Positions 17,776 to 26,041 of a DNA stretch of 45,165 nt are shown here, piece by piece. Below the pieces are notes generated by a model, which saw nothing but the letters and a program-made list of their open reading frames with translations, had not been told where the DNA came from and did not search any database. The DNA lies in the IMG/VR virus record IMGVR_UViG_3300009085_001296, positions 1 through 45,165 of that record; one strand, 5' to 3'. Position numbers and translations under genes: made by a program. Within the stretch, counting starts at the first letter, position 1, and each line of letters begins with the position of its first letter. This stretch comes from a virus.

Positions 17776-17804
17776 CTTGTTTTTAAAATTAAATCAATTA
17801 TTTT
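17776..17804 (+). promoter_or_regulatory. Phage promoter element, rightward
   Basis: CTTGTTTTTAAAATT then AAATCAATTATTTT, just after the 53-aa ORF. It is the mirror copy of the element at 17418-17456. The 17805-17944 stretch that follows is AT-rich and I see no gene in it. Confidence 0.7.
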
Positions 17805-18094: not shown

Positions 18095-19028
18095 ATTTTA
18101 CTATAAAGAGCAAATAGATGAAGATAAAGAGCCATTACTCTTTAATCTCCCTATATTGTTCAATAAACTAAATCTACCAAATACTATATTAGATACGTAT
18201 ATACCGTGCATATTTTTAAAAAATAACATCGATCCAAAAAAAATCAAAATATTTCAACAACAAAAATTTAATTATCAACATTCAACACCAACTACTATAT
18301 CACACTTAAAATTATTATCAAAATTTAATTTTATCGAAAAAAACAAATTTGAATATCAATTAAAATCACAAACAAAAACAATATTTGATCTAACTAAAAA
18401 CTATAATATTAAAATTGGTTATCGTAACATATTTAATTTTTATGACTCAAAACTATATCTTTATGAAAATCATACATTTAATGAATTTAAAAAATTAAAA
18501 TACAAAAATTTTAGAGACTTTATATTTACTGAATTAATAGCAAGATTATACTATAATACACCGGTAACAAAATATGAATTACGAAATGATTTAAATCTAT
18601 CATATAATGATTGCACTAATATATCAAAATATTTTATTGGACAAAAATGTAAAAATTATTTTAAAAGTGATGAATTACCATTTAAAAAATACACAGAATA
18701 TGAATTAAATATATGTACTGGAAACTATTATTATAAAAATTATTATGCGACTACAAGCAAATTAAATGAACATATTTTAAATAAATTAATATATAATGAT
18801 TGTAATTATTTTTATGACGATAATGATAAGAAATTTTTAATAAATTATTGGGAAAAAATGGCCAATTTAGAACATGAACATAGTCTTCTACAAGATAAAA
18901 AAAATAAACAAATTAGTCTTGGAACTAGACATGTTGAATATGCATCAGATTGGCGTAAAAAACATATTTTTCCAAAATTAACTGAAAACTCTTATCTTAA
19001 TACTTTAGCTAAAAAAATTAAATTATAA
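18078..19028 (+). CDS. Unknown 316-aa protein
   Basis: An Asn-, Lys- and Tyr-rich soluble protein with no motif I recognise. The middle region (YNTPVTKYELRNDLNLSYND) could be a winged-helix-like segment, and the C-terminus has LGTRHVEYASDWRKKH. It is isolated by non-coding DNA on both sides. Codon use is even more AT-rich than the neighbouring core genes. It sits behind tandem late boxes and a coupled leader ORF. Confidence 0.72.
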   Translation: MTEKYKFYYKEQIDEDKEPLLFNLPILFNKLNLPNTILDTYIPCIFLKNNIDPKKIKIFQQQKFNYQHSTPTTISHLKLLSKFNFIEKNKFEYQLKSQTKTIFDLTKNYNIKIGYRNIFNFYDSKLYLYENHTFNEFKKLKYKNFRDFIFTELIARLYYNTPVTKYELRNDLNLSYNDCTNISKYFIGQKCKNYFKSDELPFKKYTEYELNICTGNYYYKNYYATTSKLNEHILNKLIYNDCNYFYDDNDKKFLINYWEKMANLEHEHSLLQDKKNKQISLGTRHVEYASDWRKKHIFPKLTENSYLNTLAKKIKL

Positions 19029-19140
19029 AAAATTTAATTTTAAAATTTTTACTTTATTGTAAGAATTTTAACCATTATAAAAATCTTATAACGGTATTAG
19101 ACAAGTATTATAATAAACATTAAAATTATTTTTGTTGTTA

Positions 19141-19215
19141 GCAAAATAAAGAATATAGATAATTTGCAGAATAAGGAGTATAAACAATATGCAGAATAAA
19201 GAATATAGAATATAG
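19141..19215. repeat. Three 25-bp iterons
   Basis: Three exactly abutting 25-bp units (19141-19165, 19166-19190, 19191-19215). Each begins GCARAATAARGARTATA, and units differ at a few positions. Looser matches follow near 19231. Confidence 0.8.
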
Positions 19216-19271
19216 AATAAACTTTTGCTTGCAAAAATAAATAGAAAGGTATAATTTTTGTTTACAAAAAT

Positions 19272-19300
19272 AAATTGCTTGAGCATAGCGAAAGCAATTT
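19272..19300. repeat. Hairpin 1 of an inverted pair
   Basis: A perfect 9-bp stem AAATTGCTT/AAGCAATTT with loop GAGCATAGCGA. Its 25-bp core is the reverse complement of the core of hairpin 2, with one mismatch. Confidence 0.8.
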
Positions 19301-19494
19301 AACTTAAAGACTTGATAAAAGTTTATTGTTGCAAAATAAAAGTTTGAAGTTACAAAATTTTAGTTAATATATTTATATATATTTTAAAAGGGGATACTAT
19401 TTTCATTTTTGCTAAATCTATTGTTTTCACTATAAATTTAAATATTTTATTTGCAAAATTGTATATTTATAACTTCTACGCTACACTACGAAGT

Positions 19495-19539
19495 AAAATT
19501 AATTATTGCTTTCGCTACGCTCAAGCAATAATTAATTTT
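19495..19539 (+). terminator. Hairpin 2: 17-bp perfect stem with T-rich tail
   Basis: The perfect 17-bp arms are 19495-19511 and 19523-19539 around the 11-nt loop TCGCTACGCTC. More A+T follows, so it could act as a bidirectional terminator just before the uvsY promoter. It is also the inverted partner of hairpin 1. Confidence 0.55.
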
Positions 19540-19554
19540 TAATTAATTTTTATC

Positions 19555-19583
19555 TTGACTTTTTTCTGCAAATAAGTTATATT
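19555..19583 (+). promoter_or_regulatory. Sigma-70-type promoter for uvsY-uvsW
   Basis: TTGACT (19555-19560), a spacer of exactly 17 bp, then TATATT (19578-19583). It is 56 bp before the uvsY ATG. It is the best host-type promoter in the window and suggests early expression. Confidence 0.8.
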
Positions 19584-19639
19584 AGTATTAACCAAAATCT
19601 TCAGAATATTCTTTAATAAAAAATAAAGGTAATAGTATT

Positions 19640-20050
19640 ATGGATGAAAAAGAATTTCGAATATTACAAGAAAAAGTTAATGATGATGTTAATATAGATA
19701 AAAATAATGTTTTAAATAAATCATTAATAGTTCCAAAATTATACTCTTATTATAGTCAAATCTTTTCCGAACAATTGAAAATATTTCGGAATATGTCTTT
19801 AGAAAAAGAAAAGGTATATGGCCAACTTTACCATTATTATAAACATGAATATCAATTTAAATTAGATAAGAGAACAGATATAGAACCATATATATTTAAA
19901 GACGATAAGTGGTGTTCTTTAATGAAGAACTTTAACGACCAGGAGGTGATTGTCAAATATTTAGAAAAAGTATTAGATGCAGTGAAAAGTATGGGATTTT
20001 CTATTAAAAATTATGTTGATTATCGTAAATTTCTTGAAGGTGGTATATAG
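19640..20050 (+). CDS. uvsY: Recombination mediator UvsY
   Basis: 136 aa (T4 UvsY is 137 aa). The C-terminal LDAVKSMGFSIKNYVDYRKF parallels LDAIKSRGFAIKHIQDMRAF of T4 UvsY. The N-terminus is helical with an early acidic stretch. UvsY loads UvsX onto gp32-covered ssDNA. It is directly followed by uvsW, as in T4, with the uvsW TTG start touching its stop codon. Confidence 0.9.
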   Translation: MDEKEFRILQEKVNDDVNIDKNNVLNKSLIVPKLYSYYSQIFSEQLKIFRNMSLEKEKVYGQLYHYYKHEYQFKLDKRTDIEPYIFKDDKWCSLMKNFNDQEVIVKYLEKVLDAVKSMGFSIKNYVDYRKFLEGGI

Positions 20051-21037
20051 TTGATAAACATATACAAATATAATGAAATTTTTCTAAAATTGGATACTGA
20101 TAATGATATAGAAAGAGAAATTAAGGATTATTTTTCTTGCTATATTGAAAATAGGTGGTTTAATCCTCTTGTTAAAATGAAAAAATGGGATGGAAAAGTA
20201 TCGTTTTATGACATGAAAAATTCTTTGTTGCCGATAGGATTTTATAAAGAATTTCAAAGATTTTGTATTAAAAATGAATATCAATATGAAACCAAATTTG
20301 ATATTAATGAAATAAGAAATGATATATCGATTTCAACATTAGATGAATTTTTACGAAGATTATTTGCAGATAGTAAATTTAAGTTAAGAGATTACCAGGA
20401 TGAATCATTTAAAATAGCCGTAAAGAATAAACGTGGGGTGGTAGTAAGTGCTACGGGTTCAGGTAAAAGTCTAGTTCTTTTTGTTTTAATTAGATACCTT
20501 TTATTATTGCAAAAACAAGTTTTATTGGTAGTTCCTACTACCAATCTTACGCTTCAAATGTTATCAGACTTTAAAGATTATGGATGGGTTGATGCAGATA
20601 AATATGTCTGTACTCTATTTAGTGGACAAGAGTACGACGAACGAAAACCAGTTTTAATTTGTACATGGCAAACTCTGCAAAATAAAGAATCTGGATTTTT
20701 TCAAAGATTTGCAGGATTATTGATTGATGAGTGTTTTCATCCTGATTCTTCAGTTAGAATGGGCGATGATACCATTAAAAAAATAAAGAATGTCAAATTG
20801 GGTGATATAGTTCAATCATATAATTTTAAGACAAAACAAATAGAAAATAAAAAAGTAACTAAAATATTTAAAAATGTGATTAAAAATACAAAAAAGTTAT
20901 ATACGATTGAAGATAATTTTGGAAATATTTGTTTTCATGAAGGAATTACAAAAAATCATAATATTTTTACACCAAAAGGTAAGAAAAAAGTCGAAAAATT
21001 AAAAAAAGGCGATAAAATATTAATAAAAAATTATTAA
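20051..21037 (+). CDS. uvsW: UvsW helicase N-part fused to an N-terminal split intein
   Basis: 328 aa from a TTG start. Residues 1-227 are the UvsW N-terminal domain and the first half of the SF2 helicase core. They include RDYQ (113-116), Walker A ATGSGKS (134-140), VVPTTNL, CTWQTL, and the start of motif II, LLIDE. The frame then enters an intein at Cys228 instead of continuing with the CH of DECH, and stops 101 residues later. Motifs III-VI and the second RecA lobe are absent. No C-terminal part was found in this window. Activity would need protein trans-splicing with a partner encoded elsewhere. Confidence 0.9.
   Translation: MINIYKYNEIFLKLDTDNDIEREIKDYFSCYIENRWFNPLVKMKKWDGKVSFYDMKNSLLPIGFYKEFQRFCIKNEYQYETKFDINEIRNDISISTLDEFLRRLFADSKFKLRDYQDESFKIAVKNKRGVVVSATGSGKSLVLFVLIRYLLLLQKQVLLVVPTTNLTLQMLSDFKDYGWVDADKYVCTLFSGQEYDERKPVLICTWQTLQNKESGFFQRFAGLLIDECFHPDSSVRMGDDTIKKIKNVKLGDIVQSYNFKTKQIENKKVTKIFKNVIKNTKKLYTIEDNFGNICFHEGITKNHNIFTPKGKKKVEKLKKGDKILIKNY
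20732..21034 (+). other. Split intein, N-terminal fragment (101 aa)
   Basis: It begins with the nucleophile Cys in CFHPDSSVRMGD, followed by VKLGDIVQSYN (block A). It contains the block B pattern GITKNHNIFT with the T-x-x-H motif (Thr73, His76 of the intein), and ends KKGDKILIKNY then stop. Length and endpoint match natural split-intein N-fragments (about 90-100 aa). There is no homing endonuclease domain. The insertion point is DE|CH, so the +1 residue of the C-extein would be the Cys of the DECH box. Confidence 0.88.
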
Positions 21038-23590: not shown

Positions 23591-23621
23591 CTTGTTTTTT
23601 AAAAATAAATCAATTATTTTA
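23591..23621 (+). promoter_or_regulatory. Phage promoter element for the RNA array
   Basis: CTTGTTTTTTAAAAA then AAATCAATTATTTTA. It lies immediately upstream of the three structured RNA units. Transcription would start near 23628, so the array would be the 5' part of the transcript. Confidence 0.72.
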
Positions 23622-23659
23622 TATGTGGTGTTATTTGTTTTCTCCTTTTTGTTAGATAA

Positions 23660-23725
23660 AGTAGGCCATGATGAAACTTCCTTCTATAAATAATTTGGTA
23701 TTAATAGTTTTATCTATTTCCTACT
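23660..23725 (+). ncRNA. Structured RNA unit 1 of 3
   Basis: Outer stem AGTAGG/CCTACT (23660-23665, 23720-23725). Five-prime linker CCAT, inner 9-bp stem GATGAAACT/AGTTTTATC (23670-23678, 23706-23714), invariant TCCTTCT at the start of the loop (23679-23685), and three-prime linker TATTT. The same geometry is found in units 2 and 3. Confidence 0.75.
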
Positions 23726-23734
23726 GAAAATAAT

Positions 23735-23796
23735 AGAGGCCATAACAAATCTTCCTTCTCTACTATTATTATAACTTAGATTTGTTAATTTCCTCT
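23735..23796 (+). ncRNA. Structured RNA unit 2 of 3
   Basis: Outer stem AGAGG/CCTCT (23735-23739, 23792-23796). Linker CCAT, inner stem AACAAATCT/AGATTTGTT (23744-23752, 23778-23786), TCCTTCT (23753-23759), and linker AATTT. A run of six T follows (23796-23801), so some transcripts may end here. Confidence 0.77.
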
Positions 23797-23811
23797 TTTT
23801 TATAAACTTTA

Positions 23812-23886
23812 AAGGCTATGGTGGTTCTTCCTTCTAAATCTTAAGCGCTTCGGCGCTGCCACGAAATTAGAACTGCCAATTTCCTT
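23812..23886 (+). ncRNA. Structured RNA unit 3 of 3
   Basis: Outer stem AAGG/CCTT (23812-23815, 23883-23886). Linker CTAT, inner stem GGTGGTTCT/AGAACTGCC (23820-23828, 23869-23877), TCCTTCT (23829-23835), and linker AATTT. The loop holds an extra AGCGC-TTCG-GCGCT hairpin (23844-23857) with the very stable UUCG tetraloop. A T-rich run and then the ribosome site of the 709-aa gene follow. Confidence 0.77.
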
Positions 23887-23911
23887 ATTTTTTATTTGTG
23901 AGGAGTTTGAT

Positions 23912-26041
23912 ATGAATGATTTAATTTTGTTGAGAAGAAAGAATAAAGTTATTGTTGAAAAAGGTAATTTCAAATTAACAAATCAATATTTAGCAACTAT
24001 ATTGAAAAATATCGAATCACTCGGTTATGTTTTTTCCAGAAAATTATTAAATAGAGTAAGAACACTTTCAACTTCTGAAGCAACAAATTTCTATAATAAT
24101 TTAATTGCTAATTTAAGAAAAAATATTGGCGCAAATAAAAAATTCAATCCAATGTATTCTAATTTCCCAACACAAGTAATGGAAATGAGCGAAATAGAAT
24201 TATATTTAAATGCATATATCCATTATATAACAACATGGTGTTCTGATATTACTGATGGAAAAATTCAATCAGTTCTTCCAAAATATAAGAAGGAAAAAAG
24301 AGAAGGATTGCGGGATGATATAGAATTGAAAGTTATTGATTTAGGAACAGAACAAGAATTTTTTCAAATTTGTATTAATTTGTTATCGTCAAAAACATCA
24401 CTGTCTGAAACCGATAAAAATGATGTTGAATGGTTTATAAAAGAAAATAGCAAAAACATTAAAGATTTTTTGCCAGAAAGTATACCATTAAAAGAAAATG
24501 TTGCTCTGTTAGCCAATTTATTACTTAAATATGTGCAACACGGAGAATTATATTTATGTAAATATTTTAAAACAGCAACTGACGTATTAAGATTTGCAGT
24601 TTCATTGTCTGACGGTGATATTAGTTTAGCTAAAAATACTAAATTTAAGAAATTTAGCAGAAAAGAAAGAAGATTATTATTAACACTATTAGAAGGATGC
24701 AGAAATATTACTGAAGATATGCTACGATTTAAAACACAATGGATTAAATTAGGAGAATATTTGCATCCTGGTGATTATAAGAACAAATTTTTAGATGTAT
24801 ATGAATCTTTTGATATTTTGAGAAATAATAAGCCATTTGAAACATTTAATTCAAAAGTTGAAAAATTACTAAAAGATCATAATGTTAAAGAAGCCAGTAA
24901 TATTTTGAAAAATAGACCCGGCGATTTTGCTCGTAAATTAGATCATTTATTGCGTTTAACCAGTAATAGAAGTTCAGTTCTCGAAAATTTTGAAGATATT
25001 GCGAACAAAATTTCAACGCCAGTTTTGCTTCAAGTTCATTCGCATTTTAAAAATAGAAATAAAAATACAGAACAAAGAATATTCTTCCCTAAAGGGAATG
25101 TTGCAAAAGGTCATTTAGAAGAAAATAATTTAAAGAAAATAAACGAAGAAACATGCAAAGATGTTGTTTCTATTTGTGAAAAAACATTAATTAAAAAATT
25201 TAGTAATTTATCTGAATTAGGAAATGTATATATTGATGAAAAATTGAAAGAATTTTTAGTGCCATTTTCACAAAGATCTGCAAGCAAAGCATTAAGAACT
25301 ATTGTGAGAGGTAGTAAAATAAATATTCCAGAAGGGAATACGTTAAGATTTTTTCTTTGGTGGAAGAATATTAGCAAAAATGGTTATATTTGGCGCGGGT
25401 TTGATAGGGTAGATATTGATTTAACTGCAGCAACATTTAATGAGAATTGGAAAAGCAAAGAATTTATTAGTTGGACGAATTTGAAAAGTGCATCATTTAG
25501 AGGATATCATAGTGGCGATATAACTAATGCTCCAAATGGGGCTTGTGAATTTATTGATATTGATATAGTTTCTGCTATTGATTCTGATATACGTTATGTA
25601 ATGGCAAATTTATATTGTTATACAAATCAACCGTATAATACTATACCTGAATGTTTTATGGGTTGGATGATAAGACAGAAGCCAAATTCAGGCGAAATAT
25701 TTGAACCAAAAACCGTACAAGATAAAATTGATATATCTGCAGATACTACTATTTGCATACCATTTATATTTGATTTAGTTGAAAGAAAAATGATATGGAC
25801 AGATTTAGCATTAAAAAAGAGTCCGAATTTTAATTGTTATGAAACGAATACAAAAGGTGCCGCATTAATGGGTAAAGCAATGGTTAATTTAGTTAAACCT
25901 AATTTGTATGATTTATTTAATATGCATGCAAAAGGTAGAGGAAAAATAGTTAATGATAAGGAAAAAGCAGATATTATTTTTTCTGTAGATAAAGGAATAA
26001 CGCCTTTTGATATAGATAAAATTATGGCAGAATACCTTTAG
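23912..26041 (+). CDS. Large protein of the MXAN_6230/SCO0854-like family (709 aa)
   Basis: GTGAGGAG precedes the ATG. It begins MNDLILLRRKNKVIV and contains RPGDFARKLDHLLR, STPVLLQVHSHF, VPFSQRSASKALRT and FFLWWKN. It ends with GDITNAPNGACEFIDID, PECFMGWM, GALMGKAM-like and TPFDIDKIMAEYL segments. These match my memory of long bacterial proteins (Streptomyces, Myxococcus) named after SCO0854 and MXAN_6230. Those carry a C-terminal RING-like domain that is missing here. The N-terminal half is helical-repeat-like, and the C-terminal half has a beta-rich region reminiscent of TerD-associated proteins. The function is not established. A three-unit structured RNA array lies directly upstream. Confidence 0.8.
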   Translation: MNDLILLRRKNKVIVEKGNFKLTNQYLATILKNIESLGYVFSRKLLNRVRTLSTSEATNFYNNLIANLRKNIGANKKFNPMYSNFPTQVMEMSEIELYLNAYIHYITTWCSDITDGKIQSVLPKYKKEKREGLRDDIELKVIDLGTEQEFFQICINLLSSKTSLSETDKNDVEWFIKENSKNIKDFLPESIPLKENVALLANLLLKYVQHGELYLCKYFKTATDVLRFAVSLSDGDISLAKNTKFKKFSRKERRLLLTLLEGCRNITEDMLRFKTQWIKLGEYLHPGDYKNKFLDVYESFDILRNNKPFETFNSKVEKLLKDHNVKEASNILKNRPGDFARKLDHLLRLTSNRSSVLENFEDIANKISTPVLLQVHSHFKNRNKNTEQRIFFPKGNVAKGHLEENNLKKINEETCKDVVSICEKTLIKKFSNLSELGNVYIDEKLKEFLVPFSQRSASKALRTIVRGSKINIPEGNTLRFFLWWKNISKNGYIWRGFDRVDIDLTAATFNENWKSKEFISWTNLKSASFRGYHSGDITNAPNGACEFIDIDIVSAIDSDIRYVMANLYCYTNQPYNTIPECFMGWMIRQKPNSGEIFEPKTVQDKIDISADTTICIPFIFDLVERKMIWTDLALKKSPNFNCYETNTKGAALMGKAMVNLVKPNLYDLFNMHAKGRGKIVNDKEKADIIFSVDKGITPFDIDKIMAEYL

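Follow-up and report, generated by a model that had tools for sequence, protein, structure and literature searches.

Linkage of a small structured RNA to a protein of predicted TROVE-like fold in phages and bacteria suggests a second kind of Ro60/Y-RNA-like particle

Among described systems, the closest to the one reported here are the particles formed by the Ro60 protein (Rsr) and small Y RNAs (YrlA and YrlB). PMC7790460 describes the function of the bacterial Ro60 particle as studied only in Deinococcus; in Salmonella, the protein RtcR, activated by fragments of transfer RNA (tRNA), switches on rsr-yrlBA-rtcBA, which encodes Ro60, Y RNAs and an RNA ligase (PMC7790460). Thermus phage phiLo also encodes a Ro60, known here from the title of its Protein Data Bank (PDB) entry, 9l5y, alone. 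In this paper, we compare these systems with a tandem array of three structured RNAs, at positions 23660-23886 of the viral record IMGVR_UViG_3300009085_001296, and with the gene that follows it (23912..26041, + strand), which encodes a protein of 709 amino acids (aa). The window, in what follows, is the whole stretch of DNA that was analysed, 45,165 nucleotides (nt) long. The linkage between the RNA and the protein points to another kind of Ro60/Y-RNA-like particle, so far unrecognised.

The three units, all on the + strand, were first noticed in a sequence-only reading of the window, and both the coordinates and the blocks given there agree with the sequence: unit 1 (23660..23725), unit 2 (23735..23796) and unit 3 (23812..23886) share the layout AGG-CYAT-arm-TCCTTCT-loop-arm-WATTT-CCT. 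The arms form an inner stem of nine base pairs, at 23670-23678/23706-23714 in unit 1, where UCCUUCU occupies 23679-23685, at 23744-23752/23778-23786 in unit 2, and at 23820-23828/23869-23877 in unit 3. The sequence of this stem differs from unit to unit and pairs at nine of nine positions in each (G-U allowed); among the three units, changes are found on both sides at positions 1, 2, 3, 5, 6 and 7, the six co-changing positions previously claimed, and on one side at position 4. The same reading saw this stem correctly and treated AGG and CCT as separate blocks, which they are not: they pair, and the pairing extends outward, as AGTAGG/CCTACT in unit 1 (23660-23665/23720-23725), AGAGG/CCTCT in unit 2 (23735-23739/23792-23796) and AAGG/CCTT in unit 3 (23812-23815/23883-23886). 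Each unit is thus made of two helices around an internal loop, whose 5' strand reads CYAU and whose 3' strand reads WAUUU, and its inner stem is capped by a loop starting with UCCUUCU. RNAalifold, with no structure supplied, recovers the same two helices; an additional hairpin is predicted in the apical loop of unit 3.

We searched IMG/VR contigs with a pattern in which the unpaired blocks and their spacings alone are fixed and no pairing is demanded. The 15 stretches that matched are spread over 14 viral contigs, including one from the same virus as the window; record IMGVR_UViG_3300027972_000007 is of this virus too. In the alignment of 18 viral units, seven to nine of the nine inner-stem positions are paired in 14 units; both units of locus L009 form eight pairs with one bulged base, so that pairing at seven positions or more is found in 16 of 18. 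The other two are L004, with 5/9, and L012, with 3/9; L012, whose record has no model match, is taken as a chance match. Over all 18 units, 87.8% of the cells are paired, against 61.4% with shuffled partners, and 72 cells show double changes, against 25.4: neither value is reached in any of 500 shuffles, and slid controls of the alignment give 39-51% paired. The covariation announced from three units is confirmed. In 84 bacterial units, 95.8% of the cells are paired and 434 show double changes, against 121.7 when shuffled, with the reservation that this alignment, made by fitting to the model, leans towards it. Both helices covary. Conservation of sequence lies mostly outside the helices: GGCUAU is exact in 78 of the 84 bacterial units and UCCUUCU, predicted unpaired and nearly invariant, in 80. 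The near-invariant closing pairs of the inner stem, C-G and U-A, precede UCCUUCU, and the variable loop comes after it; this loop is not generally more folded than its shuffles (39 loops, mean z -0.5), some of the longest loops being so.

Two covariance models were built: R1 from 17 viral units, with the unpaired L012 left out and L004 kept at 5/9, and R2 from bacterial units only. R2 matches unit 2 of the window at E 2.2e-12 and unit 3 at E 1.5e-12. Unit 1 is listed by R1 at 67.3 bits in an identical contig and in none of the window searches with R1 or R2; a two-base overlap between its match and that of unit 2 may be the reason. At the units of the window, of 16 phage loci and of 15 bacterial loci, none of the Rfam 15 families scores up to its threshold on the unit strand, and the array as a whole has three weak matches at E <= 10, all on the opposite strand; as far as Rfam 15 goes, the earlier impression that this is not a known family stands. 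The RNA family is apparently undescribed, and present in many bacteria and phages.

The association between RNA and protein can be read in both directions. From the RNA to the protein, 11 of the 14 contigs that the pattern selected carry the protein family, one being the window's virus; those that lack it are two pieces, of 60 and 9.6 kilobases (kb), and the chance match L012. From the protein to the RNA, we analysed the best 80 of 127 viral relatives and the best 80 of 324 bacterial relatives; the 324 were confirmed in one genome scan, and their record titles span many phyla. With R1 at E <= 0.01, the RNA is found near 76 of the 80 bacterial relatives. The four loci without it are L168, L188, L193 and L194, and in the last three the available sequence ends, on the 5' side, at the match or within about 115 nt of it. 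The RNA is also found near 75 of the 80 viral relatives (it is missing at L089, L090, L102, L108 and L112), a count that overstates independence because several viral loci are near-identical contigs; nine viral loci share contigs with units of R1, and excluding them leaves 68 of 71. All listed matches with E up to 1, 114 bacterial and 221 viral, have the orientation of the gene.

A second scan of the same 160 loci used a regular expression and a pairing rule, with thresholds chosen after seeing the alignment. It yields 223 units in sense orientation (107 viral and 116 bacterial), none in antisense, none inside the gene, and none in one block-shuffle per locus; it recovers units in 41 of the 80 viral loci, fewer than the covariance model. 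The units lie within 500 nt of the gene in 94 of 107 viral and 113 of 116 bacterial cases. In 21 whole bacterial genomes, 39 of the 40 matches listed at E <= 0.01 are at the gene's locus and 1 is on another contig; genomes with matches carry one to five copies of the RNA, nearly all at the gene. Units off the gene's contig were seen at C8:80842-80996 of genome G213 and C26:174350-174427 of genome G024, perhaps second loci or orphan RNAs. Among GenBank phages, R2 has a match beside the gene in 6 of 8 at E < 0.01, and the RNA is near the gene in all four distant plasmid homologues fetched, from Variovorax, Vibrio and two Streptomyces (out of 27 records, with 26-32% identity). The covariance-model search of phage and bacterial genomes, which the sequence-only reading had proposed, thus finds the RNA recurring widely beside relatives of the 709-aa protein.

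Whole genomes give the strongest test of this coupling. In the family of Paenibacillus tyrfis, 28 of 104 genomes have both protein and RNA, 1 the protein only, 0 the RNA only and 75 neither (Fisher 1.6e-24); in the phylum of Paludisphaera, with a protein threshold of E <= 1e-20, the corresponding counts over 149 genomes are 6, 1, 0 and 142 (Fisher 5.1e-10). We take these groups to be Paenibacillaceae, for the organism of L119, and Planctomycetota, for that of L169. The sole RNA-less protein is a 265-residue remnant with a stop in the first group and a 194-residue partial match in the second. Absences of RNA are weaker than presences here, because the R2 searches ran under stricter filters and evaluated no more than 47 and 33 candidates per genome. 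In both sets, the small RNA is encoded with a dedicated protein. Canonical TROVE genes are found in 18 of the 29 protein-carrying genomes of the Paenibacillus tyrfis family, against 14 of the 75 without the protein: the system described here is therefore a separate one, and the two tend to live together. Two genomes have a canonical TROVE gene on the same contig as the RNA-protein system, about 16 kb from it in G063 and about 38 kb from it in G087.

The position of the units relative to the gene is variable. In the second scan, units are confined to the upstream side of the gene in 55 bacterial loci and to the downstream side in 16; 1 locus has units on both sides, and 8 have none. Of the phage units, 21 of 107 lie within 100 nt of a tRNA or transfer-messenger RNA (tmRNA) gene on the same strand, against 0 of 116 bacterial units; at L003, L010, L011 and L017, units are within about 10 bases of a tRNA gene, and some are inside phage tRNA arrays. 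On contig G002, the only unit is at 264.8 kb and the gene at 295.7 kb, about 31 kb apart; on G011, two units, at 145.6 and 148.6 kb, are 25-28 kb from the gene at 118.7 kb, and a third is beside it. Since units are found upstream, downstream, in tRNA arrays or tens of kilobases away, the element is a stand-alone RNA and not a riboswitch, and its constant sense strand without fixed position is the pattern of co-transcribed non-coding RNA genes. The data fit RNA genes co-transcribed with tRNAs, whose units are perhaps processed like tRNAs.

These positions bear directly on the alternative that survives best, which is that the units form a cis-acting leader, either a riboswitch or a protein-binding autoregulatory element, for the translation or transcription of the 709-aa gene. 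The window itself invites such a reading: the array ends 13 nt before the ribosome-binding site of this gene, GAGGAG (23900..23905, + strand), read from the sequence where it had been reported, and upstream-only units are the rule in 55 of the 72 bacterial loci with a scan hit. However, downstream-only units in 16 of these 72 loci, and units on both sides in 1, leave no fixed 5' position, and phage units can be in tRNA arrays or far from the gene, as on G002 and for two of the three on G011. We consider a leader unlikely, and the tandem riboswitch imagined from the window is, for the same reasons, not supported. A related idea, that the CCU of the loop and the 3' CCU compete for one AGG, is not supported: the outermost pair of the block is U-A, G-C or C-G in 32 of the 84 bacterial units, and the loop keeps UCCUUCU in 31 of these 32.

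We now turn to the protein. The 709-aa product belongs to phrog_33734, whose profile matches it over its whole length (E 1.7e-101, residues 23-694), and is a distant relative of the NCBIfam family NF041916, MXAN_6230/SCO0854, at 448.4 bits (E 5e-134), where the curated threshold is 600. Each of the 17 family members scanned matches NF041916. This model is described as RING domain-containing, whereas the 709-aa protein has no RING match and Pfam finds a RING in 1 of the 17 members; its name carries no mention of an RNA partner. Two paralogues are encoded on contig G007, at 18408-20570 and at 191538-193850, the first with a cysteine-rich, RING-like insert visible in translation. The 709-aa protein has no Pfam match at E <= 0.1. 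In the open literature, a scope with most subscription papers outside it, no paper among the matches listed joins TerD- or SCO0854-type proteins to an RNA.

A full-length structure model, made from nine sequences, has a predicted local distance difference test score (pLDDT) of 76.7; its helical domain, residues 149-445 (24356..25246, + strand), refolded alone with 106 sequences, reaches 94.6. In a fold comparison of this domain, the only low-rmsd (root-mean-square deviation) matches over most of its length are Ro60/TROVE proteins, with five entries among the first 16 rows: phage phiLo Ro60, 9l5y (rank 1, Z 8.6, 253 residues), the TROVE entry 9kop (rank 3, Z 8.5, 251 residues), Deinococcus Rsr, 2nvo (rank 4, Z 8.2, 259 residues), and the Ro60 entries 2i91 (rank 14, Z 6.8, 265 residues) and 1yvp (rank 16, Z 6.6, 270 residues). 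The other rows mostly cover 57-110 residues at one end, or have an rmsd above 12 A.

Residues 465-660 (25304..25891, + strand) stand where Ro60 has its vWA domain. This C-terminal domain is predicted to have the TerD fold: the modelled structure matches 3ibz with Z 15.6 over 156 residues and rmsd 3.0, and Foldseek gives E 4.6e-6. By sequence, a PDB search finds weak TerD matches only (E 0.025, 0.23; 0.26, 1.4), apart from matches to HtpG, which we take as chance, and Pfam TerD matches 3 of the 17 family members at E <= 1, the best at 1.7e-4. In contrast to tellurite-resistance (Ter) proteins, this one combines TerD with a TROVE-like domain in one chain and has an RNA linked to it, and there is no Ter gene among the scanned neighbours in the window. 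TerD domains are proposed to be sensors of nucleotide signals (PMC7824862, PMC7159879).

Further context comes from a Variovorax plasmid (L215, 1-5724), on which the gene, RING/TerD and Ro60-like, and rtcR are transcribed divergently and separated by three small genes, including one with DUF6283; two RNA units are downstream of the RING/TerD gene. A site 57 nt before the start of that gene matches 12 of 12 positions of the sigma-54 consensus, a score reached in 0 of 300 shuffles. This neighbourhood was read on one plasmid, and at least four similar plasmids exist. The fetched stretch contains neither rsr nor rtcBA and may be an RtcR regulon without them. RtcB is found in the fetched flanks of L195, where it adjoins the gene, of L160, of L007 and of Weasels2; at L208, RtcB stands beside a canonical TROVE gene.

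The likeness to Ro60 and its Y RNAs, as in rsr-yrlBA-rtcBA, has several components: a large protein with a helical, predicted TROVE-like domain and a different C-terminal domain, one to seven small stem-loop RNAs with a variable apical loop encoded alongside it, one case near rtcR with a sigma-54 site, and a few near RtcB. The Ro60 of phiLo, the best fold match of the helical domain, is likewise encoded by a phage. There are also differences. The protein has no TROVE sequence match, and has a TerD fold in place of a C-terminal vWA domain with its metal-ion-dependent adhesion site (MIDAS) motif; the RNA matches no Rfam family and has its own signature, UCCUUCU/CYAU/WAUUU; the phiLo chain has 461 residues and 11% identity over the aligned part.

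Several observations weigh against the Ro60-like reading. The similarity to TROVE is one of predicted fold only, and Z scores of 8-9 are within the range common among helical repeats, where values below 13 can reflect a common arrangement: the unrelated chain 2jkr also scores 8.5, over 92 residues. For the helical domain, Foldseek returns nothing at E <= 0.001 and no Ro60 among the best 50 matches listed; a sequence search of this domain alone against the PDB gives nothing credible; Pfam finds TROVE (PF05731) neither in the 709-aa protein nor in any of 22 phage records; and hhalign against 12 TROVE proteins gives a probability of 0.9%, with an alignment of low diversity (effective number of sequences, Neff, 1.9). 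Because these sequence tests fail and the Z scores are modest, we describe the fold as TROVE-like and stop short of classing the protein as a Ro60. On the side of the RNA, Salicola phage SCTP-2 has the protein and no match with R2, the sole match in RcXuper is at E 0.25, some training units of R2 come from loci in both groups used for the whole-genome counts, and R1 and R2 overlap the genomes tested. On the side of the context, tblastn with the RtcR of the Variovorax plasmid finds no second case among the loci examined, RtcB is near only four loci of the family, and the immediate bacterial neighbours are not conserved, with no family found more than 3 times among 96 neighbours of 51 loci (Pfam and PADLOC).

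With these points in the balance, we consider it likely that the RNA and the protein form a Ro60/Y-RNA-like ribonucleoprotein (RNP) for RNA surveillance or repair: the linkage, the RNA structure and the fold are computed, and binding and function are what we infer from them. Of the possibilities raised by the sequence-only reading, a protein-binding RNA for the 709-aa product is the one strongly favoured by the co-occurrence, the proximity and the TROVE-like helical fold, the binding itself being the presumed part. The context of rtcR and RtcB, TerD and TROVE supports a particle for RNA surveillance or repair, without proof.

Two other explanations accept the RNA and assign it a different role. 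The units could be trans-acting small RNAs, with UCCUUCU pairing, for example, with purine-rich ribosome sites, and with the protein as a mere chaperone or linked passenger. In favour of this, the motif hardly varies, is predicted to be unpaired and has AG-rich sequence as its complement; however, its place between near-invariant closing pairs and a variable loop, together with the conserved internal loop, suits a protein site, and the near-perfect co-occurrence is with one protein. We find this very unlikely. Slightly less credit still is due to a type III toxin-antitoxin system, in which a tandem RNA antitoxin would neutralise a 709-aa toxin. Tandem RNA repeats directly before a protein gene, an accessory distribution (29 of 104 genomes) and presence in phages are in its favour. 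Against it, the absence of a Pfam match at E <= 0.1 (the 709-aa protein was not run against PADLOC) gives no sign of a ToxN-type nuclease, the protein has about 700 aa and predicted TROVE-like and TerD folds instead of being a small RNase, and units are sometimes downstream or kilobases away. That the short, near-palindromic tandem units are inverted-repeat DNA elements, repetitive mobile sequences or binding sites rather than RNA, is scarcely credible, given that the listed model matches near genes are all on one strand, that the conserved unpaired blocks are asymmetric, and that a matching genome has one to five copies, nearly all at the gene. The riboswitch, AGG-competition, type III toxin-antitoxin and DNA-repeat readings are thus rejected on the evidence of position, loop conservation, fold and strand.

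If the Ro60/Y-RNA-like reading is right, the array would yield three free small RNAs of about 60-75 nt each, cut from a transcript or transcribed separately, which would be the RNA half of an RNP whose protein half is the 709-aa neighbour. Docking on the helical TROVE-like domain would involve the constant lower part of the RNA: the outer stem, the CYAU/WAUUU loop, UCCUUCU and, in the inner stem, the last C-G and U-A pairs. The variable apical loop would remain available for tethering or gating other RNAs or enzymes, as its counterpart in Y RNAs does. The TerD domain, which stands where Ro60 has vWA, would couple the particle to a signal, a metal or a nucleotide. In bacteria, this may be an accessory, stress-regulated particle for RNA surveillance or repair; phages, which often carry the system with tRNA or tmRNA genes and sometimes with RtcB genes, would probably use it to keep their own tRNAs working during cleavage of RNA by the host. 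The full picture is a pan-bacterial, phage-borne second Ro60-like RNP, with a TROVE-like ring, a TerD sensor and new Y-like RNAs, wired in places to the RtcR and sigma-54 circuit of RNA damage, and carried by large phages within their tRNA arrays, so that RNA is protected or recycled when tRNAs are cleaved as a defence against phages; to this complete scenario, we give even chances.

Some features around these loci remain to be described. A 14-mer, AAATCAATTATTTT, stands directly 5' of the array (23607..23620, + strand) and has exact copies at 17791+, 22286+ and 17428-; each copy apparently precedes genes, which makes it a candidate promoter or regulator site of the phage. The phage promoter proposed before the array is thus plausible from the repetition of this 14-mer, and sigma-70-like sites are not above chance. 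A sigma-54 site matching at least 11 of 12 positions within 500 nt upstream is found in none of the loci of the 160 relatives, nor at L216-L218. A defence-linked or conserved bacterial neighbour was sought among the 96 neighbours mentioned above and not found; in selecting the rows, four open reading frames (ORFs) shorter than 640 aa were dropped, and 62 of the 80 bacterial loci, with the neighbours of 51, were used. In the window, between 22539 and 27624, genes for a QueE-like radical SAM protein, QueD/PTPS, a phosphoribosyltransferase and GTP cyclohydrolase I lie to both sides of the array and its gene and suggest 7-deazaguanine metabolism. Further upstream, the ORF at 20051-21034 (+ strand), which matches phrog_16259 over its whole length, encodes the N-terminal part of a UvsW-like helicase ending in a Hint domain (Pfam UvsW_N, ResIII, Hint); it is possibly a split intein, and a search of the scanned ORFs for the C-terminal half found none.

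The linkage described here joins a widespread protein family without assigned function to a specific small RNA that lies outside Rfam 15, and the covariance model could annotate RNA genes that are now left blank. The phage versions, near tRNAs and RtcB, make a role in RNA repair or anti-defence directly testable. A parallel particle with a different second domain would also offer a comparison for Ro60 particles.
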